From the NCBI RefSeq assembly GCF_016411865.1, contig NZ_JAEKJA010000032.1, forward strand, positions 1 through 43,589: a DNA stretch of 43,589 nt, read 5' to 3'. The first letter of the stretch is position 1. Each line of letters opens with the position of its first letter. Origin of the DNA: Acuticoccus mangrovi (lineage in GTDB: Bacteria; Pseudomonadota; Alphaproteobacteria; Rhizobiales; Amorphaceae). The notes under the pieces are model-generated. The model ran no database searches. It worked only from the letters and a program-made list of their open reading frames with translations, and was not told the DNA's origin. Of the stretch, positions 5,575 to 30,098 are shown one piece after another. A program made the position numbers and the translations under genes.

Positions 5575-5580
5575 CGGCCG

Positions 5581-5598: not shown

Positions 5599-5610
5599 GC
5601 CGCATGGGTT

Positions 5611-5639: not shown

Positions 5640-5677
5640 CAGGAAATAATCATAATAATAGCCTGAGGGAGGGCACG

Positions 5678-7188: not shown

Positions 7189-7201
7189 CGCCCACCCGGC
7201 G

Positions 7202-7232
7202 GGGAGCGGCACCCGATCCGGGCGCCGCTCCC
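7202..7232 (+). terminator. Strong hairpin after the cytochrome gene
   Basis: Arms GGGAGCGGC (7202-7210) and GCCGCTCCC (7224-7232) enclose an inner CCCG-ATC-CGGG stem, giving 13 pairs with one A-C mismatch and a 3-base loop. There is no T-run after it. It lies 14 bases after the stop and probably ends or stabilises the sorAB transcript. Confidence 0.5.
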
Positions 7233-7305
7233 ACGCGTCGCCGCGCGATCGGCACCGATACTGTGATCTCAGTGATTGTGCGCCGCTGCAGTGTGTGCCA
7301 CCCAT

Positions 7306-7326
7306 GTCGGCAACAAGAATGCCGAC
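7306..7326. promoter_or_regulatory. Inverted repeat upstream of the sugar-acid operon
   Basis: GTCGGCA (7306-7312) and TGCCGAC (7320-7326) form a 7-base inverted repeat with a 7-base spacer. It ends 25 bases before the ATG at 7352. The position suits a repressor site for the four-gene operon. No regulator gene is adjacent. Confidence 0.3.
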
Positions 7327-7351
7327 CAACGGCAGCGCAGCGAGGGACGCC

Positions 7352-14245: not shown

Positions 14246-15324
14246 GCCACCCCTACGCCGACATCCCCGACTATCGTCATTGGCGGCGGGCGCCGGGCGC
14301 GGCCGACCCCGGCAACCTCGACCCGGTGGTCGCGACCAAGTTCGCCATCACCCCGGAGGAGCCGGTGGCGAGCGCGGGGAGCTGCTTCGCCCAGCACGTC
14401 TCCGAGCACCTGCGCCGCTGCGGCCTCAACTCGCTCGTGACCGAGAAAGCGCCGGACTTCGTGTTTCCGCGCCTGCGCCAGCAACTCCAATACGGCGTGT
14501 TCACCACGCGCTCGGGCAACGTCTACACCGCGCGCCAGCTCCGCCAGCTGTTCGACCGCGCCTACGGCCGCTTCGAGCCCGAGGCCGTCGCCTGGGAGGC
14601 GGGCGACGAGCTCGTCGACCCGTTCCGCCCCAACGTGTCCCGCTACGTCTCCGAGAGCGAGCTCCTCGCCGACCGCGAGCGGCACTTCGCCGCCGTCCGC
14701 GCGATGGTGGAGACGCTCGACATCTTCGTCTTCACCCTGGGCCTCACCGAAACGTGGGCCGACCGCGACGGCGCCGTGTTTCCGCTCGCCCCGGGCGTCG
14801 CCGGCGGTGACTTCGACGCGACGCGCCACCACCTCCTCACCCTCGGCGTGGACGAGGTGGTGGACGACATGCGCGCCGCGATCGCCACCATTCGCACCCA
14901 CAATCCGGCGGCGAAGGTGATCCTCACCGTGTCGCCCGTGCCGCTGATGGCGACGGCGCTCGACCGGCACGTGCTGACCTCCACCACCCACTCCAAGGCC
15001 ATCCTGCGCGTCGCCGCCCAGACCCTCGCCGACGCCGATCCGCTGATCGACTATTTCCCGTCCTACGAGATCATCACCGCCCCTCACACCCGCGGCAGCT
15101 ACTATGCCGAGGACGCGCGCGAAGTGACCCCGCTCGGCGTCGCCCACGTGATGCGCGTGTTCCTGAAGCACTATGTGGGCGAGACGACCGCGGAGACGCT
15201 CGCCGCGAAGGTGGCGAAGGGCCATGCGCGCAAGAAAGGCGGCAAGCGCCCGGGGTCCGTCGAGAGCGCGAAGCACATCATCGACGCGATCTGCGACGAG
15301 GACGCCTTGCGCGACGTGCGCTGA
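14242..15324 (+). CDS. GSCFA domain-containing protein
   Basis: A 360-residue protein with the motif that names the family, GSCFA, at residues 46-50. The LGLTETW segment at about 170 and the DYFPSYEI segment at about 272 are also present. GSCFA proteins belong to the SGNH hydrolase superfamily and are often near polysaccharide or surface-glycan genes; no activity is established to my knowledge. The Lys/Arg-rich C-terminal tail (about 318-338) is probably cytoplasmic. It overlaps the SGNH-like gene by 4 bases (ATGA). Its stop is only 3 bases from the convergent stop of the PilZ-HlyD gene, so no terminator separates them. Confidence 0.9.
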   Translation: MSHPYADIPDYRHWRRAPGAADPGNLDPVVATKFAITPEEPVASAGSCFAQHVSEHLRRCGLNSLVTEKAPDFVFPRLRQQLQYGVFTTRSGNVYTARQLRQLFDRAYGRFEPEAVAWEAGDELVDPFRPNVSRYVSESELLADRERHFAAVRAMVETLDIFVFTLGLTETWADRDGAVFPLAPGVAGGDFDATRHHLLTLGVDEVVDDMRAAIATIRTHNPAAKVILTVSPVPLMATALDRHVLTSTTHSKAILRVAAQTLADADPLIDYFPSYEIITAPHTRGSYYAEDAREVTPLGVAHVMRVFLKHYVGETTAETLAAKVAKGHARKKGGKRPGSVESAKHIIDAICDEDALRDVR

Positions 15325-15327
15325 GCC

Positions 15328-17022
15328 TCACGCCTCCGGCCGCGGGACGGTGACGATGGCCGGATCGCCCGCGAGCGCCGCCGGCATCGCGGGCGTGGTG
15401 CGGATGCGGGCGAACACGGCGTTCTGGTCGTCGAGGATCGCCGGCGGCAGGCCGATATAGCCCTGCGGATCGTCGACCCGGCCGACGCTCTCCACCACGC
15501 CGGTGTAGCGGTCGCCCGAATAGGGCAGGTCCACGTTGACCTCGTCGCCGAGATTGGGGGCGTTGCCGGACGCGAACAGCGCCTGCACGTGCCCCTCGCT
15601 GCCCCTCGGATAGAGAAGCGCGACCTGGCCCCCTGCGGCGACCCGCTCGCCGGGATCGACGAGGATGCGGGCGAGATAGCAGTCGCACGGGCTGACGATC
15701 GCCTTGCGCGCGCCGTTGCGCGCGTCCTCCACGAGGGAGACGATGGGCTCGCCCTCCGCCACCAGCTCGCCCGGCGCCTTCGCCCATTCGAGAACGAGGC
15801 CGCCGTCGCCGGCGTCGACGGCTATGCGCTTCACCGCCACGGCGGCGTGCTCGGCCCGCACCGCCTGCGGGCCCTTGGGGGCGGCGTCGCTACCGCCCGG
15901 CACCCGGTCCGCCGCCTCGGTGAGGATCACCACGCTCGCCACGAGGCCGATGATCGCCGCGTTGAACGGCAGCGACATCAGCGCCGCGATGGGGCTGAAG
16001 CGACGCGGGCGCTTGGCCTTTTTCGGTGCGACGGCGCGCTCCGTGGCGGCCGCCTCCTCCTCCGTCGCCCCGGGTGGCATCGGCCGGGCCCGCGCCGCCC
16101 GCGGGGCGTTGAAGGGACGGCCGTGCAAGGCGGCATGAGTCAGGGCGCGCAGCACCTGCCGCTGCGTCTCCGACGGCGCCACGAAGCGCCAGCCGGTGCG
16201 GTCCGACGAGCGGTTCACCACCTCGCCGTCGATGTCGAGGTTCACCGCATAGTCGCCGAGGTCGATCTCGAGCTCGAGCTTGCGGGCGTCGCCGATACGG
16301 TAGAGCTGGCCCTCGGAGCGGATGGCGATGCCGCCGGTCGACCAGTCGATCAGCGAATAGAGCTGATCCTCGATCATCACGGTGCCGCCGCCGTCGATGC
16401 GCTGCGCCCGCCGGTTCTGCTGGCCGGGCTCGGTGGTGATCGTGGCGGCCGCCGCACCGGGGCGGGGCGTGCGTCCGCGCGGCCGCGGGACGGTGAGGGG
16501 CGGCACCTCCACGGGCTTGGCCGCCGGCCGACGGGTCGCGGCGATCACCGGCCCCTCGTCCTCCACCGGTGGGGCCTGCGGCGTCTCCGTCCGCGGTGCG
16601 ATGTCGAGACGGGACACGTCCTGCGGAGCGGCCTCGACGCCGAGATCGTCGAAGTCTTCGAGCGGCTCCGGCGTGCGCGAGCGGACGCGCAGGCGAGAGC
16701 GCAGACCGCCGCGGCCCTCGCGTCGCGCCGCGACTCGATCCTTCGCCGCGTCCACGGGAGCCACGACCTCGCTCGCGGCGACCTGCGGGGGTGCCGGCGC
16801 GACGCCATCGTCGCCGCCGGGGGCTGCGGCCTCCTTCGGCGCCGGTACCTCCCGGGCCGACGCCGGAGGCTCGGTGGGCAGCATGGCGAGGCTGTCGTAG
16901 GTCACGCTCCAGCCGCCATATCCGAAGGCGAACTCCGACGCGGCCTCGTCCGAGGGCCGAGGCCTCTGGCGCGTGTCCCCGCCTCCATTGGTCCCGGCCG
17001 CTGCGTCGTCGTCCGCCGTCAT
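15328..17022 (-). CDS. PilZ-HlyD membrane protein, Alg44-like cyclic-di-GMP receptor
   Basis: A 564-residue inner-membrane protein in four parts. Residues 1-200 are low in complexity, rich in Ala, Pro and charge, and probably disordered. Residues about 201-295 are a PilZ domain with RRAQR at 204-208 (RxxxR) and DWSTGG at 226-231 (DxSxxG), the two cyclic-di-GMP-binding motifs, both intact. A membrane segment lies at about 344-370. Residues about 385-564 are a periplasmic HlyD/membrane-fusion-type domain (CDCYLARILVDPGERVAAGG). This order matches Alg44, the cyclic-di-GMP-activated alginate polymerase partner of Pseudomonas, but the N-terminal extension is unusual. The start at 17022 has AAGGAA upstream; the frame continues to 17721 but overlaps the glycosyltransferase gene. 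It lies in an exopolysaccharide locus that it probably switches. Confidence 0.88.
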   Translation of the reverse strand: MTADDDAAAGTNGGGDTRQRPRPSDEAASEFAFGYGGWSVTYDSLAMLPTEPPASAREVPAPKEAAAPGGDDGVAPAPPQVAASEVVAPVDAAKDRVAARREGRGGLRSRLRVRSRTPEPLEDFDDLGVEAAPQDVSRLDIAPRTETPQAPPVEDEGPVIAATRRPAAKPVEVPPLTVPRPRGRTPRPGAAAATITTEPGQQNRRAQRIDGGGTVMIEDQLYSLIDWSTGGIAIRSEGQLYRIGDARKLELEIDLGDYAVNLDIDGEVVNRSSDRTGWRFVAPSETQRQVLRALTHAALHGRPFNAPRAARARPMPPGATEEEAAATERAVAPKKAKRPRRFSPIAALMSLPFNAAIIGLVASVVILTEAADRVPGGSDAAPKGPQAVRAEHAAVAVKRIAVDAGDGGLVLEWAKAPGELVAEGEPIVSLVEDARNGARKAIVSPCDCYLARILVDPGERVAAGGQVALLYPRGSEGHVQALFASGNAPNLGDEVNVDLPYSGDRYTGVVESVGRVDDPQGYIGLPPAILDDQNAVFARIRTTPAMPAALAGDPAIVTVPRPEA

Positions 17023-17090
17023 CGTGGTTCCTTGCTCAGACGAGCCGAATATGGCGCCCTTTGACGGCTTTGTCAGGGGAGAAGGCGCGC

Positions 17091-18017
17091 TCAGCGGTGG
17101 CCCTTGCCATAGAGTGCCGGACGATCCTTGCGCCACCACGTCAACTTGCCGAGGCCGCTCATCAGAAGACCGGTGGGACCGGCCGGCCAGCGCCCGCCGA
17201 GACGGCCGAGCAGAGCGAGCGGCCCGGCGACCAGCGTCGCCGCCGCCCCTTTCGCCATATGCATCAGCATCTCGCCCCGCTGAGGGGGGCGCACCATCAT
17301 CGGAATGAGGCAGCGGTGCTGGCCCGATAGGTAGCGCCGACGCATCACGAACCCCCGGTCGAGGCGCGAGAGGGGGATGTACTCCACCATCGCCGCCCGC
17401 GGTGACCACACGAAGCGCCGCCCGTCCATGACGAGCTGGCGGAAGAGGAGCACGTCCTCGCCGCCGATGTCGTCGAGGCGCTGGTCGAACGGCGTCGGGC
17501 CGACGAAGCAGCGCTCGCGTAGGAAGGCCGAGCCGGGCAGCGGCAGATAGGCGTCGCGGTCGCTGACGTCGGTGCCCTCCGGCACGGCGAGATCGCGCGA
17601 GTAGGTATCGGTGAACCACGCGGCGCCCTCGGGCTCCGGACCGTCGATCTTGGCGATGCGCGGGCCGAAGCTGCCGTCGGCGCCGGTCGCGAGGAGGGTG
17701 CCGACCTGGGCGGCGAGCCACTCGGTGGGGGCCTCGCAGTCGTCGTCGAGAAAGGCGACGACCTCGCCCTGCGCCTCGGCGAGGCCGCGGTTACGGGCCG
17801 TCGCCACCCCCGGCTCGCGCACGTGGATCCGGGTGATGGCGAAGGGCATCGGCACCCCCGCCACCACGTCCCGGGCGTTGCCGTCGTCGGAATTGTCGAC
17901 CACCACGACCTCGATCTCGTAGTCGTCGGGCACGCGCAGCTCCGAGACGCTGGCGAGGGCCCGCGCGAGAGGCCCGGGCCGATTGCGTGTCGGAATGAGG
18001 ATGGTGATCGTCGTCAT
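17091..18017 (-). CDS. Family 2 glycosyltransferase
   Basis: A 308-residue GT-A glycosyltransferase. The N-terminus TITILIPTRNRPGPL is the typical nucleotide-sugar-binding strand and loop; the metal-binding DDD triad is in AFLDDDCEAP at about residues 88-91; a GGED segment near residue 190 is the likely base-containing motif. The C-terminal segment (about 245-285) is amphipathic and may associate with the membrane. The start at 18017 fits the family N-terminus; an in-frame upstream start adds 15 residues. It lies between the PilZ-HlyD and Wza-type genes on the same strand and probably adds a sugar to the lipid-linked repeat unit. It is the only ordinary glycosyltransferase in the locus. Confidence 0.92.
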   Translation of the reverse strand: MTTITILIPTRNRPGPLARALASVSELRVPDDYEIEVVVVDNSDDGNARDVVAGVPMPFAITRIHVREPGVATARNRGLAEAQGEVVAFLDDDCEAPTEWLAAQVGTLLATGADGSFGPRIAKIDGPEPEGAAWFTDTYSRDLAVPEGTDVSDRDAYLPLPGSAFLRERCFVGPTPFDQRLDDIGGEDVLLFRQLVMDGRRFVWSPRAAMVEYIPLSRLDRGFVMRRRYLSGQHRCLIPMMVRPPQRGEMLMHMAKGAAATLVAGPLALLGRLGGRWPAGPTGLLMSGLGKLTWWRKDRPALYGKGHR

Positions 18018-18065
18018 GATCCGTTCGCCCGCCCCCCCTGCGGGCTCCGGCGGGCTCGTCACCCC

Positions 18066-18875
18066 TTAGTTCGTCTTTTCATAGAGTGTGTAGTTGAAGT
18101 TGTGGTTAAACGGAACCACGCCCTCGATGTATTGTTTGATGAAGAGATTTAGTTTGGCAATGCCGCTCTTCGGCACGAACACGATGTCGAACGGGCGCAG
18201 CAGCGTGTTCTCGGTGGGTGTGCCGCCGTTGGCGAACGACTTCAGGTCGAGGTAGCGCAGCATCGGCAGATCGTTCGGCCCGCGGCGGATCAGGACGACA
18301 TTCTCGGTGTTGGCCGTGGTGAGGAAGCCGCCGGCCTGGAACACCGCCTCCAGCACGCCGGTGGGGCCGGAGATCACATAGGCGCCCGGCTCCTTCACCT
18401 CGCCGCCGACGAACACCTGGCGGCTGCCGAAGCCCGTCGGCACCACGCCCACGTCGGGAAAGCGCAGATAGCGGCTGTAGCGCTTCTCGAGCTCCGCTTC
18501 GAGCGAAGCCGGGGTGCGCCCGACCGCCTGCACCTCGCCGATGAGGCCGATATAGATGTTGCCGTCGGGGGCGACCTTGGTCTCGACGTCCTCGTCCTCG
18601 TAGAAGGGAAGCTTCACCTGGAGCTCGTCGCCGACGACGAAGCGCAGCTCGTCCTGGAAGCCTTCCGCCCACGGCTGGAAGCCCGAGGGGAGCGGCGGCG
18701 CGATCGGCTCGCTCGGCGCCTGGCACGTGGGTGTGCAGGGCGCGAGCGCGTCCTCGGGCGCCTTGTAGACCGGGCAGCCCGAAACGCTCGTCGCCGACAC
18801 GCACGGGGCGTCGCCCCCCTGCGTGGCGCAGGCGGTCAGGGCGAGGAGGAGGATGAGGACAGCCAGCCGATGCAT
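18066..18875 (-). CDS. Polysaccharide export lipoprotein, Wza/ExoF type
   Basis: A 269-residue outer-membrane polysaccharide export protein. The signal peptide ends in lipobox LTAC with Cys16. The poly-export domain (about 70-150) starts with LRFVVGDELQVKLP and includes VAPDGNIYIGLIGEVQ. SLBB-type repeats follow (VFVGGEVKEPGAYVISGPTG at about 155-175). It is shorter than Escherichia coli Wza and lacks the long C-terminal barrel helix region. An unusual feature is a mature N-terminus with four more Cys in about 30 residues (CVSATSVSGCP, CTPTCQ). ATG 18875 is preferred over an upstream TTG in frame. A perfect inverted repeat lies just upstream at 18914-18936. Confidence 0.92.
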   Translation of the reverse strand: MHRLAVLILLLALTACATQGGDAPCVSATSVSGCPVYKAPEDALAPCTPTCQAPSEPIAPPLPSGFQPWAEGFQDELRFVVGDELQVKLPFYEDEDVETKVAPDGNIYIGLIGEVQAVGRTPASLEAELEKRYSRYLRFPDVGVVPTGFGSRQVFVGGEVKEPGAYVISGPTGVLEAVFQAGGFLTTANTENVVLIRRGPNDLPMLRYLDLKSFANGGTPTENTLLRPFDIVFVPKSGIAKLNLFIKQYIEGVVPFNHNFNYTLYEKTN

Positions 18876-18913
18876 CGGAATCCCCAAGGACGGATGTCCA
18901 TGAGCCTTGGGTC

Positions 18914-18936
18914 GTTAACCTTAGCAAAAGGTTAAC
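18914..18936. promoter_or_regulatory. Perfect inverted repeat upstream of the Wza-type gene
   Basis: GTTAACCTT (18914-18922), AGCAA, AAGGTTAAC (18928-18936) is a 9-bp perfect inverted repeat. A third GTTAAC occurs at 18960-18965. It is AT-rich in a GC-rich setting and sits 39 bases before the export gene's ATG (minus strand). No T-run supports a terminator, so an operator is more likely. The TTAA spacing (13 bases) does not fit the CtrA motif TTAA-N7-TTAA. Confidence 0.45.
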
Positions 18937-19015
18937 GCGGCCGGTTTCTGAAAGGAGTTGTTAACACCCGCGGTGCCCGTCTTGCGGCGCCCGACGGTGC
19001 CGCGGCGCGTCCCGA

Positions 19016-20632
19016 TCAATAGGCGTTGCGCGAGCGGAACAGCAGCGACAGCGGAGTGATGGCGAGGATGTAGAGGTCGAACCAGAAGGTCCAGTTCTCG
19101 ATATATTCGATGTCGTAGCGCACCCGCACGAGGAGCTTGCGGTTGGTGTCGGTCTCGCCGCGCCAGCCGTTCACCTGAGCCCAGCCGGTGATGCCCGGCT
19201 TGACGCGATAGCGGCGCATGTAGTCGGCCACCGCCTCCTCGAAGGGCTTGCCCTCCGCCTTTGTGCCGAGCGCGTGGGGGCGCGGGCCGACGAGGCTCAT
19301 ATCGCCGTTCAGCACGTTGAAGAGCTGCGGCAGCTCGTCGATCGACGTGCGGCGCAGGAAGCGGCCGACGCGCGTCACGCGCGGATCGTCCCGCGTGACC
19401 TGGGCGGCGCCGGCAAGGTCCGTCAGATCGGTCCGCATGGTGCGGAACTTGTAGATGGTGAAGATGCTGCCGTTCCAGCCTCGGCGCGGCTGGCGGAACA
19501 GCACCGGCCCCTTGCTGTCGAGTTTGATCGCCAAGGCGGTGAGCCCCAGGAGCGGGCTGAGCAGCACAACCAGAATGCCGGCGATGAGCCGATCCTCGAC
19601 GAACTTCGCCACGCCGGCCCATCCCTCGATGGGCGCGTCGAGAGCGCGCAGCATCGGCGCGCCGCCGATGGTCTCGAACGGCCGGTCGAAGAAGCGCCAC
19701 ATGGCAAGGTCGGGCGCGAAGAGCACCGTCACCGAGAAGCGCGACATGCGGTTCATGATGTGGGTCAGCCGCTCCACCGCGTTGAGCGGCAGCGCGATGA
19801 TGACCTCGTCGACCATGCCCTGGGCGACCGCCTCCTCGAGCTCGGCGAGGCCGCCGCGGCGCTCGTAGCCTTCGATCGCCTCGGGCACCCGCTGATAGCG
19901 GTCGTCGTAGAAGCCGACGAGGGCGTAGTGGGCGTCGTCGCTGGCGTTGAGATGCTCGATGACGGCGACGCCCTGCGCATCGCCGCCATAGATCGCGACG
20001 CGTCGGCGCAGATGGCCGCGCCGCATCGCGAAGCGCACCAGCAGCGCCACGATGACGCGGTAGACGAAGATCGTCGCCGTGGCGGCGACGAGCCAGGCGA
20101 GCAGCCATTCGCGCGTGTAGGGCTCGCCGAACTGCGCGCCGAAGGTGACGGCGGTGATGAGCGCGAAGGTGAACAGCAGCGACTGCACCAGTCGCCGGAT
20201 GAGCCGCAGCGTGATCTTGTGCGCCGGGGTCCGATAGACCTTGTTGCTCTCGAGGACGCGGGAGAACACGATGGTCGCGACGAGGGTCATCGCCGAATAG
20301 GTCAGCATGACGTCGATGCCGCCGATCATCACGCGCGATACCACGAAGCCGGCGCCGAAGAAGCTCAGGAGATCGCCGACGGTCAGCGCCCGGTCGATGC
20401 TGCGCAGGTCGAGATATTCGGGGCGGCCGAAAGCCTGCGGGACGCGGCGCATCCGGCTGACCTTGCGGTTGAGGTGCACGTCGGTCGGATCGGCGGCGAG
20501 GTCCGCGGCCGGCGCGCCAGGCTCGGCGGAATCGGCGCGCGCAGACGCGGGCGTGCGCGCCGGCGTCACCGTCGCCACGACCCCCTCACCGCTGGGGAGC
20601 GGTGCGTCCCGAAGATTGTCCCTGGCTGTCAT
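19016..20632 (-). CDS. Undecaprenyl-phosphate sugar phosphotransferase (WcaJ/ExoY type)
   Basis: A 538-residue membrane enzyme that transfers a sugar-1-phosphate, often glucose-1-phosphate, to undecaprenyl phosphate and so starts the lipid-linked repeat unit. A disordered N-terminus (about 1-60) is followed by four membrane segments at about 80-200, a Rossmann-like central domain ([17 protein letters not shown]), a re-entrant membrane helix ([16 protein letters not shown]) and the catalytic bacterial sugar transferase domain with [26 protein letters not shown] and [13 protein letters not shown]. All signature motifs are intact. ATG 20632 is taken; GTG 20644 in frame is an alternative four residues upstream, and neither has a strong Shine-Dalgarno. 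It is divergent from the flippase gene. Confidence 0.95.
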
Positions 20633-20728
20633 CCAGTCATTCACCGCACCTGTTCCAGAACCCTGACCCCATTCCCATCCCAGCGGGCGATGTTCTTGCG
20701 GCCATCGCGCGGTTCAGCGCAACCAACA

Positions 20729-20758
20729 TTGGCATCCCATGATTCTGCAAAGTTATAC
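20729..20758 (+). promoter_or_regulatory. Candidate promoter for the flippase-chain length-acylase-GH3 transcript
   Basis: TTGGCA at 20729-20734 is followed, after 18 bases, by TTATAC at 20753-20758. The match is moderate. If used, the leader before the GTG at 21023 would be about 255 bases, long enough for regulation. Confidence 0.35.
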
Positions 20759-20781
20759 AGCAGAGGTTTAACTTTTATACA
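20753..20781. promoter_or_regulatory. Direct repeat TTATACA, 22 bases apart
   Basis: TTATACA occurs at 20753-20759 and at 20775-20781. The centre-to-centre distance of 22 bases is close to two helical turns, as expected for two protein subunits binding one face of DNA. It overlaps the candidate -10 on the plus strand, and its minus-strand reading contains TATAAA. Confidence 0.3.
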
Positions 20782-21022
20782 CTTGGCAGCTCGATCCGTT
20801 CCGGCGCCCATGCGCCCCGCCTTCGGCTCGATGAATCAGCGTGTTAGACTATTGAGCAACGATGCTGACCCGACGCCGACTCCACCCTCCTGATCATCCC
20901 CACCGGATCGCCTTGACCTTTCGCGTCCTCACGCCACAATCTTACCATGTTTGCGCGCGGTCCGTCGCCGGCGGACTGGCCCGATCCGTCGCCACCGCCG
21001 TCGGTCGCGCGGGTGAGGTACA

Positions 21023-22267
21023 GTGAAGCGCTATATCCTCCCTCTCATCAACCAGGGCGTGGTTGCGGCGTTCAACCTCACCCTCCAGCTGCTCCTGATC
21101 CGCCTCGCCTCGTCGGAGGATTTCGGCACCTTCGTGCTGTGGCAGTCGATGGTGATGATCATGGTCGGCTTCCAGGACGCCATGATCGGCGTGCCCCTGT
21201 CGCTCCGCATCGCCTTCGATCCGACGAATGCGCGGCGATTCGTTCTGGAGAGGCAGGTGGCGGCGTTCGCGGCGATCTTCGTGGCGGGAGCCGCGGCGAT
21301 CCTGCTCGTCGCCCTCCTCGTCGTCGGCGACGGGCTGCGCTCGCCGCTCCTCGGCCCGGCCGTCGCGCTCTACGCCGCGAGCTTCCTCGCCTACTACGCG
21401 GTGCGCTTCCTCGCCCAGTCGCGGGCCCAGTTCGGCAAGGCGCTCGTCATCGACAGCGCCTACTCGCTGATGAGCCTCACCGCGGTCGGCCTCCTGGCGG
21501 TCACCTTCGGCACGCTTCCCCTCGTGCCGCTCTTCGCCGCGCTGTCGCTGCCGGCCGCGGCCGCGGCCGTCATCGGCTACGCGATCCTGGAGCGGCCGCC
21601 CGCGCCGCGCAGCCGCCGCATGTTGCAGCGCTACGCCACGATCTGGCGCGACACGCGTTGGACGGTGGCGGCCGTCGCGGCGTCCGAGCTGCAGAACCGC
21701 GCCTTCATCTTCGTCATCTCCGCCCTCTACGGATCGGCCGCGCTCGCCGGCGTGTTCGCCGGAACCATCGTGCTGCGGCACATCGTCCTCGTGATGGGCG
21801 CGTGGACGGCCTTCGCCCGACCCTTCCTGGTCGGCATGCGCGACCGCGGCGCCACCACCGCCATGTTGCAGTTCTCGCTGGGCTCCGCCGCGGTGCTCAT
21901 GGCGATGTTAGCTGTGAACCTCGTCATCCTCGCCGTGGCCTGGCCGCTGATTGACACGTACATCTATGGTGCAAAGTACTCGGACATGTGGTCGGTGGTT
22001 GTTCTGTGGACGATCGTCTACGCCCTACAGGCACCCGTGATGCCCCTCGCGATGGTGCTCGTCACGCTCGGCCGCTACCGGGAGGATTCCACGGCGGTCA
22101 TGATCGGCTCGACGGTCACCGTGACGCTGGTGACGGTGCTCGCGGCCACATTCGGGCCGCAGACCGCGGTCGTCGGCATGGGCGCCGGCTACGTGATCAC
22201 CTGCGCCATCATGGGATGGCGCATCGCCCAGGAGCTCGGCCGGCGCCGCGCGATGGTCGCCCCGTGA
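21023..22267 (+). CDS. Polysaccharide flippase, Wzx/oligosaccharide flippase family
   Basis: A 414-residue polytopic membrane protein with about 12 hydrophobic segments, matching the MOP-superfamily flippases that move undecaprenyl-linked repeat units across the inner membrane. The N-terminus (YILPLINQGVVAAFNLTLQLLLIRLASSEDFGTFVL) is typical of the family: an Asn/Gln-rich first helix and a loop ending in the DFGTF turn. The start is GTG at 21023, preceded by GGTGAGG. The Wzz-type gene follows after 13 bases. With the Wza-type and chain-length proteins it indicates a Wzx/Wzy-type export route, although no Wzy gene is seen. Confidence 0.88.
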   Translation: MKRYILPLINQGVVAAFNLTLQLLLIRLASSEDFGTFVLWQSMVMIMVGFQDAMIGVPLSLRIAFDPTNARRFVLERQVAAFAAIFVAGAAAILLVALLVVGDGLRSPLLGPAVALYAASFLAYYAVRFLAQSRAQFGKALVIDSAYSLMSLTAVGLLAVTFGTLPLVPLFAALSLPAAAAAVIGYAILERPPAPRSRRMLQRYATIWRDTRWTVAAVAASELQNRAFIFVISALYGSAALAGVFAGTIVLRHIVLVMGAWTAFARPFLVGMRDRGATTAMLQFSLGSAAVLMAMLAVNLVILAVAWPLIDTYIYGAKYSDMWSVVVLWTIVYALQAPVMPLAMVLVTLGRYREDSTAVMIGSTVTVTLVTVLAATFGPQTAVVGMGAGYVITCAIMGWRIAQELGRRRAMVAP

Positions 22268-22280
22268 GGCCGTCGCGACG

Positions 22281-24326
22281 ATGAGCGCGCCCGACGCCAC
22301 CCTCGCGGCGGTCGCCGAGCCGCGCGCGCCCAACCCGCTCAACCCGATCCTGTGGCTGATCGAGGCGCTGTGGCAGTACAAGTGGCTCATCGTCACCATC
22401 ATGGTCGCGGGCGTCGTCGCCGCGACGCTGCTCGCGAGCCGGCTGCCCAACAGCTATTCCGCGAGCGGCCTCCTCGAGATCGACCCGCAGTCCGAAGGCG
22501 TCTTGCGCGGGCAGCAGAGCTCCAGCGGCTACATCCCGCCCGAGACGATCACCGAGACCGAAGTGCAGGTGATCCAGTCGACCAACGTGCTGTCGCGCGT
22601 GGTGGACCAGCTCGACCTCGAATATTCGCAGGCGAACCCTGCGCTGCGCGCCTCCGCGAAAGACGGCCCCAAGAGCCGCGCCAGCGCCGAGAGCGCGATC
22701 ATCGATTCGCTCCAGCGCAACCTCACCGTCCGCCCCACCGGCCGCTCTTTCGTGGTGGAGGTGAGCTTCGAGGGCTCCGATCCATCCTACGTCGCCGACG
22801 TGGTGAACGCGGTGATGAACGCCTATCTCGGCGTCGAGGTCTCGCAGCAGCGCACATTCGCGCGCGACGCCATCACCCTCCTGTCCAACCGGCTCGACGA
22901 GCTGCGCACCGACCTCGATTCCCGCGAGCGGGCAGTGCAGGACTTCCGCGCCACGAGCCGCATCGCCGAGGAGGCCGGCACCAACATCCTGTCCGAGCAG
23001 CTCGCCCGGCTCAACGAGGAGCTCGTCCGCGCCCAGGCCTCGCTCGCCACCGCGACGGCCGCCTCGAGCCAGCGCGGCGCCGTCGCCGACAGCCTGCCGG
23101 AGGTGGTCAACTCGCCGCTCATCCAGCAGCTCCGCGCCCAGGCGGCGGTGCAGGAACGCACCGTCTCCGAGCTCGCCTCGCTCTACCGCCCGAGCCACCC
23201 GCGCCTCATCCAGGCGAAGAGCGCCCTCGCCGCGCTGCAGGACACCATCGACCAGGAGACGCAGAAGATCGTGTCGGCGATCGGCACCACCGAGACGGTC
23301 GAGGCCGACCGCGTCGCCGCCCTCCAGAAGGACGTCGACGCCCTGCGCGGCCGGCTCAACGAGCAGCGCAACGCCGAGATCGAGCTTCGCCGACTGGAGC
23401 GCGAGGTGGAGGCGAGCCGCAAGGTCTACGAGGCTTTCCTCGACCGCTTCAACGAGGTGCAGGGCACGTCGGGCCTGGAGCGGCCGGACGGGCGGATCAT
23501 CGCCTCGGCGGTGCCGCCCATCCAACCGTCCGGGCCCAAGCGCATGCTCATCGTGGCGGGCGGCGGCATCCTGTCGGGCGGCCTCGCCTTCGCGCTCGTC
23601 ATCGGCCTCGCCCTCATCGATTCGCGCATGCGCACCCGCGCCGACGTGACGCGCGCGACGGGCCTCACCCCCGTCGCCGTGATGCCGCCGGTGCCGGGGC
23701 GCGGCGGCCTGCTGCGCCGGTTGGGCGGGCGCCACCGCAACGCCGCCTTCGCCGAGGCGATCACCCACCTGCGCGCCGCGCTGGTGCTCGGCGCCGGCAC
23801 CCACGGCACCACCGTGCTCGCGATGACCGCCGTCGACACCGCCACCGGCCACGCCGCCCTCGCCGCCGCCCTCGGCCAGGCGTGCGCCGTGTCGGGCGAC
23901 CGTGCCGTGATCGTCGACGCCAACGTGGAGAACCCGACGCTCCACACCCTCCTCGGCGGCAGCAACGAGTACGGCCTCTCCGAGGTGGTCGCCGACCGCG
24001 GCGACCTCGACAGCACGCTGCAGATGGACGAGGCCTCCGAGCTGATGTTCATCGCCGCCGGCAACCGGTCCGACCCCTCGCTCTACCGCTCCGAGTGGAT
24101 GGGCCGCGTCCTCGACCTTCTCTACGAGCGCTTCAACGTCACGATCCTCTGCCTGCCGCCGCTGCCGGATCTGCCCGACGCCCAGGTCCTGGTGTCGGAG
24201 GCCGACGTCACCGCCATCGCCGTGCGTGCCGGCCTCACCGACCGATCAAGCCTCGCCGAGCTCGTCGCCATGCTCCGCTTCGCCGGGCAGAGCCGCCGCC
24301 TCGCCACCGTGCTGATGCGCGGCTGA
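22281..24326 (+). CDS. Wzz/GumC-type chain-length protein with a degenerate BY-kinase domain
   Basis: A 681-residue polysaccharide co-polymerase. The first membrane segment is at about residues 35-55, followed by the Wzz domain (about 60-150), long coiled coils (about 190-400), the PxxP-like segment SAVPPIQPSGPKR and a second membrane segment at about 420-445. The C-terminal domain (about 480-670) has the fold of a bacterial tyrosine autokinase, but the Walker A region reads MTAVDTATGHAALAAALG (about 513-530), with no GKS/T. Walker A' keeps an Asp (VIVDANVENPTLHTLLG). There is no Tyr-rich tail. It is therefore probably a catalytically dead kinase domain kept for structure or control. The gene is 13 bases after the flippase gene. 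Confidence 0.92.
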   Translation: MSAPDATLAAVAEPRAPNPLNPILWLIEALWQYKWLIVTIMVAGVVAATLLASRLPNSYSASGLLEIDPQSEGVLRGQQSSSGYIPPETITETEVQVIQSTNVLSRVVDQLDLEYSQANPALRASAKDGPKSRASAESAIIDSLQRNLTVRPTGRSFVVEVSFEGSDPSYVADVVNAVMNAYLGVEVSQQRTFARDAITLLSNRLDELRTDLDSRERAVQDFRATSRIAEEAGTNILSEQLARLNEELVRAQASLATATAASSQRGAVADSLPEVVNSPLIQQLRAQAAVQERTVSELASLYRPSHPRLIQAKSALAALQDTIDQETQKIVSAIGTTETVEADRVAALQKDVDALRGRLNEQRNAEIELRRLEREVEASRKVYEAFLDRFNEVQGTSGLERPDGRIIASAVPPIQPSGPKRMLIVAGGGILSGGLAFALVIGLALIDSRMRTRADVTRATGLTPVAVMPPVPGRGGLLRRLGGRHRNAAFAEAITHLRAALVLGAGTHGTTVLAMTAVDTATGHAALAAALGQACAVSGDRAVIVDANVENPTLHTLLGGSNEYGLSEVVADRGDLDSTLQMDEASELMFIAAGNRSDPSLYRSEWMGRVLDLLYERFNVTILCLPPLPDLPDAQVLVSEADVTAIAVRAGLTDRSSLAELVAMLRFAGQSRRLATVLMRG

Positions 24327-24381
24327 GGCGAGGAGCCGCGGTGTGGAACGGCTCCGCCGCCCCCCTCGTTGAGTGTTCGAC

Positions 24382-26628
24382 ATGTCGTTCACCTCGTTCT
24401 CCGGGCTGACGCGGCGCGGTCGCCAGGCCTTCTCCCTCGCCGGGCTCGCCGCGAGCGTGCTGCGCCGTTCCGTCGGCCGCCGCTTTCCTCCGCTGTCGCT
24501 TCAGGAGCGGCTCGCGATGCTGCCGGCCGCCGCGCCCGTCTCCGCGCCGCTCACGATCCGTTGGAGCGACCAGCACGTCCCCTTCGTCGAAGCCGCCTGC
24601 GAGCGCGACGCGGCCGTCGGCCTCGGCATCGTCCACGGCCACCTGCGCCTCGCCCAGATGGAGGTGATGCGCCGCGCCGCCTACGGCCGCATCGCCGAGG
24701 TGGCGGGCGAGGCCGCGCTCGCCGTCGACCGGCTGCTCCGCATCATCGACTTTCCGCGCGCGTGCGCGCCGTCGCTGGCGCTGATGCCGGCCGAGACGCG
24801 CGCATGGATCGACGGCTTCGCCGACGGCATCAACGCCGCAGCCACCGTGCGCCCCCTCCCCCCCGAGTTCGACATGCTGGGGCTCGAGCCGGAGCCGTGG
24901 ACGGCGGCGGACCTCTTCGCCGTCTCTCGCCTGTGCTCGGCCGACTATGCCTGGCGGGTGTGGCGCACGCTGAGCCCGCTGCGGCAGGAGGACGACTGGG
25001 CGCGCATGTGGGCCGACCTCATGGGCGTCGCCGCCATCGCCGACGAGGACATCCCGATCGGCGCCGACACGCTCGACAAGGCGCTGCCCAACGCGTTCGA
25101 CCACGCCGGCTCCAACGCCGTCGCCGTCTCCGGCAGCCGCACGCGCTCCGGCAAGCCCATCCTCGCCTCCGACCCCCATCACCTCATCACCACCCCCGGG
25201 CTGTGGCTGATCGCGGGCTTCAAGACGCCGGCCTCGATGGTGTGGGGCCTCATGATACCGGCGCTTCCGATCTTCGGCGTCGGACGCAACCGGCATGGCG
25301 CTTGGGGCGGCACCAACCTCCACGCGACGTCGTCGGAGCTCGTCGACGTCGCCGGCGAGCCGCTCACCAGCGAAGAGCACACGATCGGCCTGCGGGACGG
25401 GTCGCGCCACACGGTGCTCCTGCGCCAGTCCACCCTCGGCCCCATCGTCAGCGACGACGGCCCGTTCGCCCTCGACGGCGAGACCGTGGCCCTCCACTGG
25501 CTCGGCCACCGCCCGAGCGACGAGTTCACCCCGTTCCGCACCATGCTGCGCGCCCGCGACTACCGCGACTTCGCCGTCGCTCTCGACGGCTACGCCCTTC
25601 CCGGCCTCAACATGCTGTGGGCTGGAGAGGGCGGCGAGATCGGCAAGCTCATCGCCGCCCACATCCCGCGCCGCCCGCTCGCGATCCCGCCGGACATCGT
25701 GGTCGACCGCGCCGTCGCCCACGACCAGTGGCACACCCTCCTGTCCACCCGCGACCTGCCGCAGAGCGTCGACCCCACGGTGGGCTTCGTGGTCTCGGCC
25801 AACGAGCCGCCGGTGGATCCGCCGGTTACGATCAGCCTGTTCTTCGCCGCCCCCCACCGGGCCGAGCGCATCGCCGCCCTAGTCGGCGAGCGGCGCGACC
25901 TCACGGCCGCCGATCTCGCCGCCTTGCAGCGCGACGTGCACCTCGCCCCGGCGGCGAGCCTCGCGGCGCGCCTCGTCGCCGTCGCCCGCGCCCACGCGAT
26001 CGGCGGCCCCGTGGTGGACGCCCTCGCCGCATGGGACGGCGACTACGGCACCCATTCCGCCGGGGCGCTGGCGCTGGAGCTCGTCGCGCCGAGCCTCGTG
26101 GATCAGCTGGAGACCCGCTCGCCCAAGCGCTACGTGAGCCCCCATTGGCGGCCCTTCTCGCGCCTTTCCGGCCTCGTCGACGCGGCGGGCGAGGCCGACC
26201 TCGCCGACGCCCTCCGCACCGCCGTCGCCGCCGCCGAAGCCCCGTTCGCCCGACACGGGACGTGGGGTGCGCTGCACCACGTGCGCCTCGCCCATCCGCT
26301 GACCCGCCTTCCGCTCGTCGGCGCGCGCCTGCCCACCATCGACTTCCCCTCCGGCGGCTCCAACGACACGCTGATGAAGTCGATGCACCCGATGACGCAG
26401 AAGCCGCACGCCACCAACTTCGGCGCCAACGCCCGCTTCGTGGCCGATCTCGCCGACCCCGACGCCACCAGCGCCGTGCTTCTCGGCGGACAGGACGGCT
26501 GGCCCGGCTCGCGCACCATGTTCGACCAGGTCGGCGCGTGGCGCCGCGGCGAGGCGCTCCCCCTCCCCTTCACCGATGCGGCGCGGGCCGACGCGCTGCC
26601 CCACACCACCACGATCCTTCCGGCATGA
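24382..26628 (+). CDS. Penicillin acylase family Ntn hydrolase (amide hydrolase)
   Basis: A 748-residue member of the penicillin acylase family, which hydrolyses amide bonds in beta-lactams, acyl-homoserine lactones or N-acyl amino acids after self-cleavage. The predicted nucleophile is Ser244 in HAGSNAVAVSG, the start of the beta chain; the oxyanion-site Asn is in VVSANEPP. Other family segments are VHGHLRLAQMEVMRR (alpha chain), SGKPILASDPH and FPSGGSNDT. The alpha chain (about 240 residues) and beta chain are of normal size. The N-terminus has RRGR followed by only about 12 apolar residues, so export is uncertain; relatives are usually periplasmic. ATG 24382 is preferred over GTG 24373. 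The stop overlaps the GH3 ATG by 4 bases. Confidence 0.9.
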   Translation: MSFTSFSGLTRRGRQAFSLAGLAASVLRRSVGRRFPPLSLQERLAMLPAAAPVSAPLTIRWSDQHVPFVEAACERDAAVGLGIVHGHLRLAQMEVMRRAAYGRIAEVAGEAALAVDRLLRIIDFPRACAPSLALMPAETRAWIDGFADGINAAATVRPLPPEFDMLGLEPEPWTAADLFAVSRLCSADYAWRVWRTLSPLRQEDDWARMWADLMGVAAIADEDIPIGADTLDKALPNAFDHAGSNAVAVSGSRTRSGKPILASDPHHLITTPGLWLIAGFKTPASMVWGLMIPALPIFGVGRNRHGAWGGTNLHATSSELVDVAGEPLTSEEHTIGLRDGSRHTVLLRQSTLGPIVSDDGPFALDGETVALHWLGHRPSDEFTPFRTMLRARDYRDFAVALDGYALPGLNMLWAGEGGEIGKLIAAHIPRRPLAIPPDIVVDRAVAHDQWHTLLSTRDLPQSVDPTVGFVVSANEPPVDPPVTISLFFAAPHRAERIAALVGERRDLTAADLAALQRDVHLAPAASLAARLVAVARAHAIGGPVVDALAAWDGDYGTHSAGALALELVAPSLVDQLETRSPKRYVSPHWRPFSRLSGLVDAAGEADLADALRTAVAAAEAPFARHGTWGALHHVRLAHPLTRLPLVGARLPTIDFPSGGSNDTLMKSMHPMTQKPHATNFGANARFVADLADPDATSAVLLGGQDGWPGSRTMFDQVGAWRRGEALPLPFTDAARADALPHTTTILPA

Positions 26629-28151
26629 TCGACGCCACGCCGCTCCTGCGCGCCCACGCCCGGCTGCGGCGCCGCCACCTCGCGCGGCGCACCCCGGCGG
26701 CGCTGCAGGAGGCCGAGCTTCTGCGCCTCGTCCGCCGCGCCGCCGGCACCCGCTTCGGCCGCGACCACGACTTCGACGCGATCGCCAGCGTCGCCGACTT
26801 CCAGGCGCGCGTTCCGCTGCGCTCGTTCGAGGATTTCCGGCGCGACTATTTCGACGCCGCCTTCCCCGTGCTCACCGACCTGACGTGGCCCGGCACCATC
26901 CCCTATTTCGCCGTCTCCTCCGGCACCGCGAGCGGGCGCACCAAGCACATCCCGGTGTCGAAGGAGATGCTGCGCTCCAACGCCCGCGCCGGCACCGACA
27001 TGCTCGGCCACCACGCTCTCCTTCACCCCGAGAGCAAGGTGCTCGCCGGCAAGAGCTTCATGCTGGGCGGCTCCGTCGCGATGACGGACCTCGGCCACGG
27101 CATCCACTCCGGCGACCTTTCGGGCATCGCGCGGCTCGAGAACCCGCGCTGGTCGACGCCCTTCGTGTTCCCCTCCATCGAGGAGGCGCTGGAGGCGGAC
27201 TGGGAGAAGAAGATCGACCGCCTCGCCCGCCTCTCCCTCGACGAACCGATCCAGTGCATCGCCGGCACACCGAGCTGGCTGCTGCTCTTCTTCGAGCGGC
27301 TCGCCGCCCTCACCGGCCGCGGTCACGACGTGACCGCCTTCTACCCCGACCTCGACCTGATGGTGTACGGCGGCATGAGCTTCGCCCCCTATCGCGAGGT
27401 GTTCGCCCGGTGGTTTCCCTCCCGCGGGGTCGACTGGCGCGAGGTCTATTCCGCCAGCGAAGGGTTCGTCGCGAGCGCCGACCGCGGCGTCGGCGACGGC
27501 CTGCGCCTCAACCTCGACATCGGCCTCTTCTTCGAGTTCGTGCCCATCGCCGAGTGGGACGACGAGTCCCCCGCGCGCTACTGGATCGGCGACGCGCCGC
27601 CCGGCGAATACGGGCTGGTGCTGTCCACCTGCGCCGGCCTCTGGGCCTATCGGCTCGGCGACGTGGTGGAGCTGATCGAGGGGCATCCGCCGCGGGTGCG
27701 GGTGACGGGCCGCACCTCTTACTATCTCTCCGCCTTCGGCGAGCATCTGTCCGGCCGCGAGATCGAGACCGCCGTGCTCGCCGCCGCCCGCGCCGTCGGC
27801 CGCAGCGTGAGCGAATATGCCGTCACCCCGCTCTATCCGGAGGCGGGGCGGCACGCGGGCCGCCATCTCTTCGTGGTGGAGCTCGACGCGCCCGTCGACC
27901 CGGGCGCCGCGGCCCGCTTCGCCGAGACGCTCGACGCGACCCTCGCCGCCGGCAACGAGGACTACGAGGTGCACCGGCGCGGCGACTATCAGCTGCAGCC
28001 GCCGCGCGTGGTGCTCGCTCCGCCCGGCGACTTTACCGAATGGATGCGCGCCCGCGGCAAGCTCGGCGGCCAGAACAAGGTGCCCCGGGTGGTCTTGGCG
28101 GACGACGTGCGGCGCGATCTGATGCAACTCGCCGACGCCTCCGACGTTTGA
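26625..28151 (+). CDS. GH3 family acyl-amido synthetase (adenylate-forming)
   Basis: A 508-residue protein of the GH3 family. Plant members adenylate a carboxylic acid such as jasmonate, indole-acetate or benzoate and join it to an amino acid by an amide bond. Motifs seen are the P-loop-like SSGTASGRTKHIPVS (residues 98-112), YSASEGF at about 290 for adenine/acyl binding, and YRLGDVVEL at about 342. The C-terminal cap follows and includes EDYEVHRRGDYQLQPPRV. No membrane segment is seen. Bacterial GH3 proteins are known from genomes, but I know of no settled substrate. It overlaps the acylase gene by 4 bases (ATGA), so a synthetase and an amide hydrolase are made from one transcript. Confidence 0.9.
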   Translation: MIDATPLLRAHARLRRRHLARRTPAALQEAELLRLVRRAAGTRFGRDHDFDAIASVADFQARVPLRSFEDFRRDYFDAAFPVLTDLTWPGTIPYFAVSSGTASGRTKHIPVSKEMLRSNARAGTDMLGHHALLHPESKVLAGKSFMLGGSVAMTDLGHGIHSGDLSGIARLENPRWSTPFVFPSIEEALEADWEKKIDRLARLSLDEPIQCIAGTPSWLLLFFERLAALTGRGHDVTAFYPDLDLMVYGGMSFAPYREVFARWFPSRGVDWREVYSASEGFVASADRGVGDGLRLNLDIGLFFEFVPIAEWDDESPARYWIGDAPPGEYGLVLSTCAGLWAYRLGDVVELIEGHPPRVRVTGRTSYYLSAFGEHLSGREIETAVLAAARAVGRSVSEYAVTPLYPEAGRHAGRHLFVVELDAPVDPGAAARFAETLDATLAAGNEDYEVHRRGDYQLQPPRVVLAPPGDFTEWMRARGKLGGQNKVPRVVLADDVRRDLMQLADASDV

Positions 28152-28195
28152 CCGGAGACGGCGGAGACGTTCGACCACGGGGAATGGGCGCAGTC

Positions 28196-29152
28196 ATGAC
28201 CGACGTGCAGTTCGAGCCGGTGCGGCTCGCGACGCAAAATCCGTTCGTGCTGAGCGACTTCGGCAACGGCAACGGCGAGAGCAAGGCGTCGGCCGTCCTG
28301 CAGGCCGAGCTCTATCGCCCCGTGGGCGTCGCGCCGCCCTATCCCGCCGTCGTGGTGAGCGAGGGGCTCGGCGGCATCAAGACCGCGCGAGAGCGACGCT
28401 ACGGCCGCTTCCTCGCCGAGCACGGCTACATGGCACTGGTCATCGACAGCTTCGCGACACGCGGCTTCGCCAACTCCGCCCATCCGATCCGCGCCATCAA
28501 CGTCACCGAATCGATGATGCTCGCCGACGCCTTCGCCGCCCTCGGCTGGCTCGCCGCCCGCGACGACGTCGACCCGCGCCGCATCTGCCACATCGGCTTC
28601 TCCTACGGCGGGATGATCTCGCTGCTCACCGCCTACGAGCAGATCCGCCGCCACTTCGTGCCGGGTGACCTCGCCTTCGCCGCGCACGTCTCCTACTACG
28701 GCCCCACCGTGCCGCGCCTCGAGGACTACGCCACCACCCGCGCCCCCATCGCCATCCTGAACGGCGAGCTCGACGCCAACTTCGATCCGCGCCGCCTCGA
28801 CCTCATCGCCGGCGACCTGCGCGAGGGCGGCTCGGCGGTGGAGAACGTGGTGTTCCCCGACACCTACCATCAGTGGGATTCGGATGATCTCGTGCGCCGC
28901 TTCGACCGCTTCAACATCCGCGCTCTCGGCACCCGCATCGACCCGCTCTACGCGATCATCGACGAGCGCTCGGGCAGCGTGGTGCGCAACTTCGCGACGC
29001 GCCTCCTGATGATCGCCCGCTCGGTGAGCCTCAAAGGCTTCCACCTTCTGCGCGACCCTGACGTGATGCGCCGAAGCGACGAGATCCTGCTGCGCCACCT
29101 CGCCGCACCGGCGCGGAGCACCGACGCCGCGGCAGCTCAGCGCACCGGCTGA
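28196..29152 (+). CDS. Dienelactone hydrolase-family alpha/beta hydrolase
   Basis: A 318-residue alpha/beta hydrolase. The nucleophile elbow is GFSYGG at about residues 136-141, so the nucleophile is Ser, not the Cys of true dienelactone hydrolase. Asp in NGELDANF (near 182) and His in DTYHQW (near 219) complete the triad. The oxyanion segment is SEGLGGIKTARERRYGRFL. Residues 235-318 are a helical extension. Substrates of this subgroup are unknown; esters, thioesters or lactones are possible. It follows the GH3 gene by 44 bases on the same strand and converges on ubiA 7 bases later. ATG 28184 in frame, with GGGGA directly against it, is an alternative start four residues upstream. Confidence 0.87.
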   Translation: MTDVQFEPVRLATQNPFVLSDFGNGNGESKASAVLQAELYRPVGVAPPYPAVVVSEGLGGIKTARERRYGRFLAEHGYMALVIDSFATRGFANSAHPIRAINVTESMMLADAFAALGWLAARDDVDPRRICHIGFSYGGMISLLTAYEQIRRHFVPGDLAFAAHVSYYGPTVPRLEDYATTRAPIAILNGELDANFDPRRLDLIAGDLREGGSAVENVVFPDTYHQWDSDDLVRRFDRFNIRALGTRIDPLYAIIDERSGSVVRNFATRLLMIARSVSLKGFHLLRDPDVMRRSDEILLRHLAAPARSTDAAAAQRTG

Positions 29153-29159
29153 AGGCGCC

Positions 29160-30098
29160 TCAGAAGAGCGCTTCGGCGACGAGGCCGGCGAACAGCAGGA
29201 AGCCCGCGGTGCGGTTGGAGCGAAACGCGGCGAGGCAGGAGGCGGGATCCTCCGTCGTCACCTTCGTCACCTGCCGGGCGAGGTGGGCGGCGAAGAGGGC
29301 GAGGCCGAGAAAGCCCCACACTCCGGCACCCGCGAGCGCCAGGGCTACCGCGAAGGCCGTGACCGTCGCCGCGTAGCAGAGGCCGACGGCGAGCTTGGTG
29401 TTCTCGCCGAAGAGGCGCGCGGTGGAGCGCACGCCGATGATGGCGTCGTCCCGCCGGTCCTGATGGGCGTAGATGGTGTCGTAGCCGACGGTCCAGGCGA
29501 TCGAGCCCGCATAGAGGAAGAACGGGGCGACGGCGAGCGAGCCGAACGTCGCCGACCAGCCGAGAAAGGCGCCCCAGGAGAAGGCGAAGCCCAGCACGAT
29601 CTGCGGCCAGTCCGTCACCCGCTTCGCCAGCGGATAGAGCGCCACGATGGCGAGCGAGCCGAACGCCACCATCACCGTGAAGGCGTTGAACTGGAGCACC
29701 ACGGCGAGCCCGACGAAGGCCTCGGCGAGGAGGAAGAGGAAGGCCGCGTCCGTCGACACCTGGCCGGAAGGGATCGGGCGCGATCGGGTGCGCTCCACGT
29801 GAGCGTCGATGTTGCGGTCGAGAATGTCGTTGTAGGTGCAGCCGGCGCCGCGCATCGCCACGGCACCGACGAGGAAGAGGGCGAGATGCCAGACGTTGGG
29901 CACATGACCCGCCGCCACCGCCGCAAGCCCGACGCTCCACCAGCACGGCCACAAGAGGAGCCACCAGCCGATGGGCCGGTCGAGCCGGGCGAGGCGGGCA
30001 TAGGGCCGCGTCTTCGCCGGCAGCAGGCGGTCGACCCAGTTGTCGGCCGGGGCATCGGCGACGCGGCCGGAGAGGTCGAGTGTGTCAGCTCTCGTCAT
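29160..30098 (-). CDS. ubiA: 4-hydroxybenzoate polyprenyltransferase
   Basis: A 312-residue intramembrane prenyltransferase that joins the polyprenyl tail to 4-hydroxybenzoate in ubiquinone biosynthesis. Both Asp-rich motifs for Mg2+-diphosphate are intact: NDILDRNID at about residue 93-101 and YDTIYAHQD at about 218-226. About eight to nine membrane segments are visible and the length is normal for UbiA. The start at 30098 has GGAGA 7 bases upstream; an in-frame ATG at 30110 is less likely, and the frame's further upstream extension is not coding in style. It is divergent from purD across 222 bases in which no clear promoter was found. Confidence 0.95.
   Translation of the reverse strand: MTRADTLDLSGRVADAPADNWVDRLLPAKTRPYARLARLDRPIGWWLLLWPCWWSVGLAAVAAGHVPNVWHLALFLVGAVAMRGAGCTYNDILDRNIDAHVERTRSRPIPSGQVSTDAAFLFLLAEAFVGLAVVLQFNAFTVMVAFGSLAIVALYPLAKRVTDWPQIVLGFAFSWGAFLGWSATFGSLAVAPFFLYAGSIAWTVGYDTIYAHQDRRDDAIIGVRSTARLFGENTKLAVGLCYAATVTAFAVALALAGAGVWGFLGLALFAAHLARQVTKVTTEDPASCLAAFRSNRTAGFLLFAGLVAEALF

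Follow-up and report, generated by a model that had tools for sequence, protein, structure and literature searches.

A penicillin-amidase-family acylase and an OlsH-like GH3 enzyme recur together in Alphaproteobacteria: a possible acyl-recycling pair

OlsH, a bacterial GH3 enzyme, joins free fatty acids to ornithine in an ATP- and Mg-dependent reaction, and OlsH-OlsI, an operon of a GH3 and an alpha/beta-hydrolase gene, has been published for planctomycetes as part of the pathway that makes ornithine lipids in Singulisphaera acidiphila (PMC12493201). In living E. coli OlsH yielded no product, which the authors attributed to scarce free fatty acid; GH3 homologues outside planctomycetes may take other amino acids, and their substrates were left open in that 2025 paper (PMC12493201). 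Here we analyze a stretch of 43,589 nucleotides from Acuticoccus mangrovi (the window, which is the whole of contig C26 of a 5.46-Mb genome), in which a GH3 relative of OlsH directly follows an acylase of the Penicillin-amidase family (S45, with the N-terminal nucleophile, or Ntn, fold). The recurrence of this pair across many alphaproteobacterial families suggests an undescribed route that recycles fatty acids into amino-acid lipids.

The acylase and GH3 genes of the window

Three genes stand in line on the forward strand. The acylase (24382..26628, 748 aa) matches PF01804 at 463 bits (E 2.9e-138), the GH3-family acyl acid amido synthetase (26625..28151, 508 aa) matches PF03321 at 89.5 bits together with PF23571 and PF23572, and a dienelactone-hydrolase-like alpha/beta hydrolase (28196..29152, 318 aa) matches PF01738 at 66.5 bits (cut-off 21). 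The GH3 ATG at 26625 overlaps the acylase TGA stop at 26626-26628, and the junction is read directly as ATGA (26625..26628, 4 bases); 44 bases separate the GH3 stop (28151) from the start of the third gene (28196). An earlier note on this DNA had reported both spacings, as well as the motifs HAGSNA in the acylase, SSGT and YRxGD (here YRLGD) in GH3 and a Ser-Asp-His triad in the third protein, and all of them were located in the window. A simple scan of positions 20600-29400 found no terminator-like or promoter-like site between the three genes.

The GH3 protein carries SSGT at 98, YSASE at 275 and YRLGD at 342, that is, the three nucleotide motifs of the family, including the essential Ser of motif 1; Ser99, Gly100 and Thr101 are invariant in 43 aligned rows. 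Its N, middle and C domains reach the Pfam gathering scores, and its AlphaFold model (pLDDT 90.3) has the plant GH3 fold, with plant GH3 structures as best matches. With the OlsH equivalog model NF052613 it scored 530.5 bits and did not reach the cut-off of 620; in an alignment of 483 columns it shares 47% identity with a planctomycete OlsH. That planctomycete locus (L094) served as positive control: its GH3 scored 990.6 bits with NF052613, and an OlsI above the cut-off of NF052614 lies two genes from the GH3 gene, with a methyltransferase between. The earlier note had expected an acyl-amino acid amide as the product of GH3, and this kind of product agrees with what is described for OlsH (PMC12493201). 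A second, distant GH3 is encoded in the same genome on contig C17 (L169, 8681-10615), with 75 bits for PF03321 and 20 bits for the OlsH model; three proteins that have no Pfam match are encoded in line with it.

In the acylase, HAGSNA occupies residues 241-246 with Ser244 as the nucleophile, and Ser244, His266 and Asn474 are invariant across 33 aligned homologues. The GSN at the processing site and the His at beta position 23 are as in S45 members, from which we take the roles of His266 and Asn474. The Pfam score, the Ser nucleophile, the conserved Asn and the Ntn fold all place the protein in S45. The best fold match of its AlphaFold model (pLDDT 88.6) is D-succinylase (7eby), followed by glutaryl-cephalosporin acylase and MacQ, enzymes whose substrates are presumably short diacid amides or N-acyl-homoserine lactones (AHLs).

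The acylase tree (70 rows) splits into two clades, with the window acylase in clade I. A lipoprotein-type signal was found in 39 of 49 assessable clade II rows by a pattern rule of our own, and two of 18 assessable clade I rows were flagged for a lipobox, both doubtful. The rule was relaxed after the sequences had been viewed (a stricter form flagged 26 of the 70 rows), and the counts exclude three rows that are truncated and six loci that are repeats. In the window acylase neither a lipobox nor a signal peptide is visible; its N-terminus, tested as an amphipathic helix, has a hydrophobic moment of 0.32. Where the lipoprotein-type signal applies, clade II acylases should face the periplasm, and acylase and GH3 would then occupy different compartments. 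The cycle of cleaving and making that the earlier note had drawn is thus unproven. In two genomes both clades are represented, by a single acylase each: in G187 (contigs C12 and C77) the clade II acylase adjoins GH3 and the clade I acylase adjoins a homologue of the third gene, and in G430 (contig C1) neither acylase adjoins GH3.

The lipoprotein-type signals of clade II, and the fold kinship of the acylase to the AHL acylases MacQ and PvdQ, would suit a scavenging function, in which the acylase dismantles foreign N-acyl compounds (AHLs, N-acyl amino acids) and the acid so released is captured by GH3 as the cell's own amide or detoxified by it. The third protein also gives a match to an AHL lactonase model, weak at 34 bits against a cut-off of 400. 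The window acylase, however, scores 24.9 bits with the PvdQ equivalog NF051460, far below its cut-off of 950, and the lack of a visible signal peptide likewise argues against scavenging, which we regard as unlikely.

Co-occurrence of the acylase and GH3

The same 387 alphaproteobacterial genomes, an even sample of the class, were searched for GH3, the acylase and the third gene, with at most three, two and five candidates, respectively, scored per genome. Near-full-length acylases of the window type scored at least 586 bits, with one contig-edge copy at 490, and the next group at most 327, with two fragments between; the limits of this subfamily and of the third-gene subfamily were chosen by eye where the ranked scores showed a gap. 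One of the fragments (370 bits, G438), from a genome without GH3, was left out of the acylase count.

GH3 was present in 48 genomes and the acylase subfamily in 59. Both genes were found in 43 genomes from 23 family groups, and they were adjacent in 31 of these, from 20 family groups; in the other 12 they lay apart, with GH3 at a contig end in two (G125 and G223). Five genomes had GH3 only (in two, G066 and G084, near a contig end) and 16 had the acylase only. Co-presence was strongly associated (Fisher p 5e-38, uncorrected for kinship), and the association held when stratified by family (p 4.7e-10) in the 86 genomes for which a family code was available and the family was judged informative. 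The functional link between an amide-cutting and an amide-making enzyme proposed in the earlier note is therefore borne out at the level of genes, and the pairing is not confined to one species. Among 102 control genomes whose penicillin acylases are all of other types, at matched median genome size (3.9 vs. 4.0 Mb), GH3 was found in just three, which ties the link to this acylase subfamily and not to penicillin acylases at large.

Could the two genes simply have been inherited together, as two genes of one lifestyle retained in an old operon and sharing no chemistry? In favor of this, the link is known here from genes alone. The presence of acylase and GH3 nevertheless co-varies inside families, 15 of which contain genomes with both genes as well as genomes with neither, and the 12 genomes that hold both genes apart (two of them undecidable because of contig ends) also speak against it. 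We consider such co-inheritance improbable.

The asymmetry between acylase-only and GH3-only genomes looks as if GH3 depends on acylase output. In the 13 of 16 acylase-only genomes examined, by crude gene calling and without a Pfam run, no neighbor that might replace GH3 was common beyond one family group. The tight coupling of the genes would also suit plain biosynthesis, in which GH3 makes an N-acyl amino acid (a surfactant, signal or membrane lipid) and the acylase acts as editor or off-switch for wrong or surplus product. The 16 of 59 acylase genomes that lack GH3 argue against this, because there the acylase has work without GH3, and so does the lipoprotein-type signal on most clade II acylases.

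A pattern-based scan of 84,980 species genomes, built on the GH3 alignment, gave 140 relatives, of which the best 80 loci were analyzed; four of these repeat Acuticoccus genomes, and the paired loci L076 and L103 are near-copies. The 80 loci hold 82 GH3 genes: in 46 cases the acylase is the immediate upstream neighbor in the same orientation, in 26 it is absent, and 10 cases at locus edges are undecidable. According to the names in the genome records, such pairs occur in Rhodospirillaceae, Azospirillaceae, Acetobacteraceae, Roseomonadaceae, Rhodovibrionaceae, Sneathiellaceae, Tepidamorphaceae, Geminicoccaceae and Rhodobiaceae, and in one Desulfofustis bin. Roseospira marina (L089), a species within the tree of the OlsH paper (PMC12493201), has the pair as well. 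When presence of the pair is mapped onto the GH3 tree, 16 changes are required, compared with a mean of 28 after shuffling, so that the pair is clustered on the tree, yet has been repeatedly gained, lost or unlinked.

Spacing was measured in 45 of the 46 pairs from the GH3 start codon nearest to the aligned start. The genes overlap by 1-8 bases in 18 pairs (exactly 4 in 12), are 0-43 bases apart in 24, and 108-229 bases apart in three. The earlier note had proposed to score conservation of the 4-base overlap: it is common, but not universal, and among the eight Acuticoccus genomes it occurs only in the window. An exact 4-base overlap was accordingly ruled out as a required signature. The 46th pair (L041, 7127-11542, Defluviicoccus sp. 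SSA4) has an internal stop near 9362 in the acylase frame, past which the same frame stays open into GH3.

Tandem GH3 duplicates were seen at L050 (10001-13166), behind a molybdopterin aldehyde-oxidase-like gene and with no adjacent acylase, and at L040 (73-3170), where the contig edge is too close to show whether an acylase adjoins. In two acylase-less loci, L048 (8914-9948) and L091 (5050-6099), a 2-oxoglutarate-Fe oxygenase or a fatty acid desaturase gene precedes GH3, as if the acyl chain might be modified there.

The third gene and the surroundings of the unit

The third protein has GFSYGG at 134-139 (Ser136), GELD (Asp193) and YHQW (His225), with Ser presumably at the place of the Cys of classical dienelactone hydrolase. 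Seven further Acuticoccus genomes carry a GH3 with 69-80% identity to that of the window, and the order acylase, GH3, third gene is kept in all eight. The acylase-GH3 junction is the 4-base overlap in the window, 8 bases in six genomes and a 1-base gap in one. The triad is present in the window and is not conserved within the genus: the Ser nucleophile is lost in three of the eight genomes (GLADGG, GFAAGG and GFGEGG), in two of them together with the His; the copy of Acuticoccus kalidii (L016/L024) is among those without it. A thioesterase gene follows the third gene in six of the eight (4HBT by Pfam for the single one checked), and in the window's genome the nearest homologue of that thioesterase, at 72% identity, is on another contig (C13).

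Beyond the genus, the third-gene subfamily (at least 287 bits) was found in 28 of the 387 genomes, of which 20 also have the acylase and 19 also have GH3 (19 of 48 GH3 genomes vs. 9 of 339 others; p 5e-13 for GH3 and 3e-12 for the acylase, uncorrected). Its neighbor is GH3 in Acuticoccus, Lutibaculum, Stella, L049 and G232; in Azospirillum halopraeferens it and the acylase are divergent; and in G187 and G430, where GH3 is encoded at another site, it adjoins the clade I acylase. Both L049 and Stella have it in the slot that the acylase has elsewhere. A three-gene cycle, as pictured in the earlier note, is not supported: the widespread core is the pair, and the third protein is an accessory member linked in few lineages. 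The third gene was also considered as OlsI and ruled out, since the protein gave no match to the OlsI model NF052614 (cut-off 385) at E 0.001 and BLASTP with the OlsI of L094 gave E 0.51.

Upstream of the acylase, positions 14242-24326 hold a polysaccharide synthesis and export cluster, with genes for GSCFA, PilZ/HlyD, glycosyltransferase family 2, Wza-like, bacterial sugar transferase, membrane and Wzc-like proteins. The membrane protein has no Pfam match and appears flippase-like by eye. The Wzc-like gene ends 55 bases before the acylase. A Wzc-like gene precedes the unit in four of the eight Acuticoccus genomes (one weakly); it was not seen in the fetched stretch of three, and one contig was too short. 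Exopolysaccharide (EPS) function was therefore ruled out as a constant theme. Farther from the unit the window encodes a sulfite-oxidase-type molybdopterin protein with a cytochrome c-like reading frame (5678-7188) and a TauE/SafE exporter (12577-13314).

These neighbors bear on two of the alternatives. Biosynthesis with editing gains from the polysaccharide export genes that adjoin the unit in the window and three other Acuticoccus loci, and from the gene of a resistance-nodulation-division (RND) efflux pump in line with the pair in two loci, as for an exported product; it loses by the three Acuticoccus genomes in which the sequence retrieved around the unit showed no EPS genes. On balance we find it doubtful. 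The stretches with the RND gene are 3014-7659 in Lutibaculum (L028, where Pfam also identifies a membrane-fusion protein) and 20458-24839 in Indioceanicola (L015). Ntn acylases form acyl-enzymes, and with EPS genes next to the unit in the window the acylase might act as an acyltransferase, moving the acyl group of the GH3 product to another amine, for instance on a polysaccharide or a lipid head group of the neighboring EPS pathway. EPS genes are not a constant neighbor, however, and no transferase feature was identified in the acylase, so that this function is highly improbable.

Acyl recycling and comparison with known systems

PF13444, the OlsB family, is encoded in 255 of the 387 genomes, in 46 of the 48 with GH3 and in all 59 with the acylase subfamily, compared with 87 of the 102 controls (p 0.001 for 59/59 vs. 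87/102). A role of GH3 as stand-in for a missing OlsB in ornithine lipid synthesis was ruled out, because nearly all GH3 genomes have PF13444. The frequency of the family in genomes with acylase and GH3 makes an aminolipid pool likely.

Our preferred explanation, held tentatively and at somewhat less than even odds, is that acylase and GH3 form a module that recycles the acyl groups of N-acylated amino acids (aminolipids). It builds on gene order, co-occurrence, motifs, folds and kinship to OlsH, all observed here, and is the simplest explanation because of the coupling of the genes, the asymmetry of their distribution and the known chemistry of GH3. The acylase would hydrolyze an N-acyl amino acid, or a related N-acyl amine, at its amide bond and release a free acyl acid; the OlsH-like GH3 would activate a free acyl acid with ATP as an acyl-adenylate and couple it to an amine. 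The result would once more be an N-acyl amino acid, whose chain or head group may differ from the first. The esterase-like third protein and the hot-dog thioesterase of Acuticoccus may release further acids from esters and thioesters into the same acid pool. We infer all substrates, the direction of flow and the acid-supply role of acylase and helpers; for the acylase that role is supported by the failure of OlsH to give product in E. coli, attributed to scarce free fatty acid (PMC12493201).

A more specific and rather unlikely version is a cycle in Alphaproteobacteria that resembles the Lands cycle but works on amides: the acylase would strip the N-acyl chain from aminolipids made by OlsB, and a GH3 of the OlsH type, using free acid, would re-acylate the amino acid, so that membrane aminolipids are remodeled in chain or head group without acyl carrier protein-bound acyl groups. 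The OlsB-family gene in every acylase-subfamily genome fits such remodeling.

Several points weigh against acyl recycling: (i) the substrates of both enzymes are presumed, the nearest acylase folds suggest short diacid amides or AHLs, and a long acyl chain is assumed; (ii) GH3 misses the OlsH cut-off, so that ornithine is not established as its amine; (iii) PF13444, which we take to cover other acyltransferases besides OlsB, is broader than OlsB, and the evidence from it is suggestive; (iv) acid freed by clade II acylases with a lipoprotein-type signal would need uptake; (v) 26 of 82 GH3 genes have no adjacent acylase; and (vi) co-occurrence could reflect a shared niche.

The pair suggests that amide bonds of bacterial lipids are turned over, and the acylase could explain the source of free fatty acid for GH3. 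The specific acylase that accompanies GH3 is also a testable partner for an enzyme family that is still open. No description of the acylase-GH3 pair was found in the open-access literature, the scope of the search, with subscription papers and preprints outside it. The earlier note knew of no described bacterial system of this kind; for the acylase partner this stands within the scope of that search, and for GH3 with an alpha/beta hydrolase it does not, as the OlsH-OlsI operon shows (PMC12493201).

When compared with known S45 enzymes, the window acylase has the Ntn fold in common with D-succinylase, glutaryl-7-ACA acylase, MacQ and PvdQ. It differs from these in belonging to a subfamily of its own, separated by score, with GH3 as partner, and many of its clade II relatives bear lipoprotein-type signals. 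The plant GH3 enzymes JAR1, GH3.5 and GH3.15 share fold and nucleotide motifs with the window GH3 at 14-20% identity, with a TM-score of 0.62 for the match of best E-value and a maximum of 0.77 (GH3.15); their acids are presumably plant hormones, and we take them to have no acylase partner gene.

The OlsH-OlsI system shares with the window the three GH3 nucleotide motifs and a nearby gene of the alpha/beta-hydrolase fold. The partner in the window is an Ntn acylase, whereas the words penicillin, acylase and amidase do not occur in the main text of the OlsH paper (PMC12493201). Unlike in OlsH-OlsI, no methyltransferase gene lies among or beside the three genes of the window, and an OlsB-family gene is present in the window's genome.

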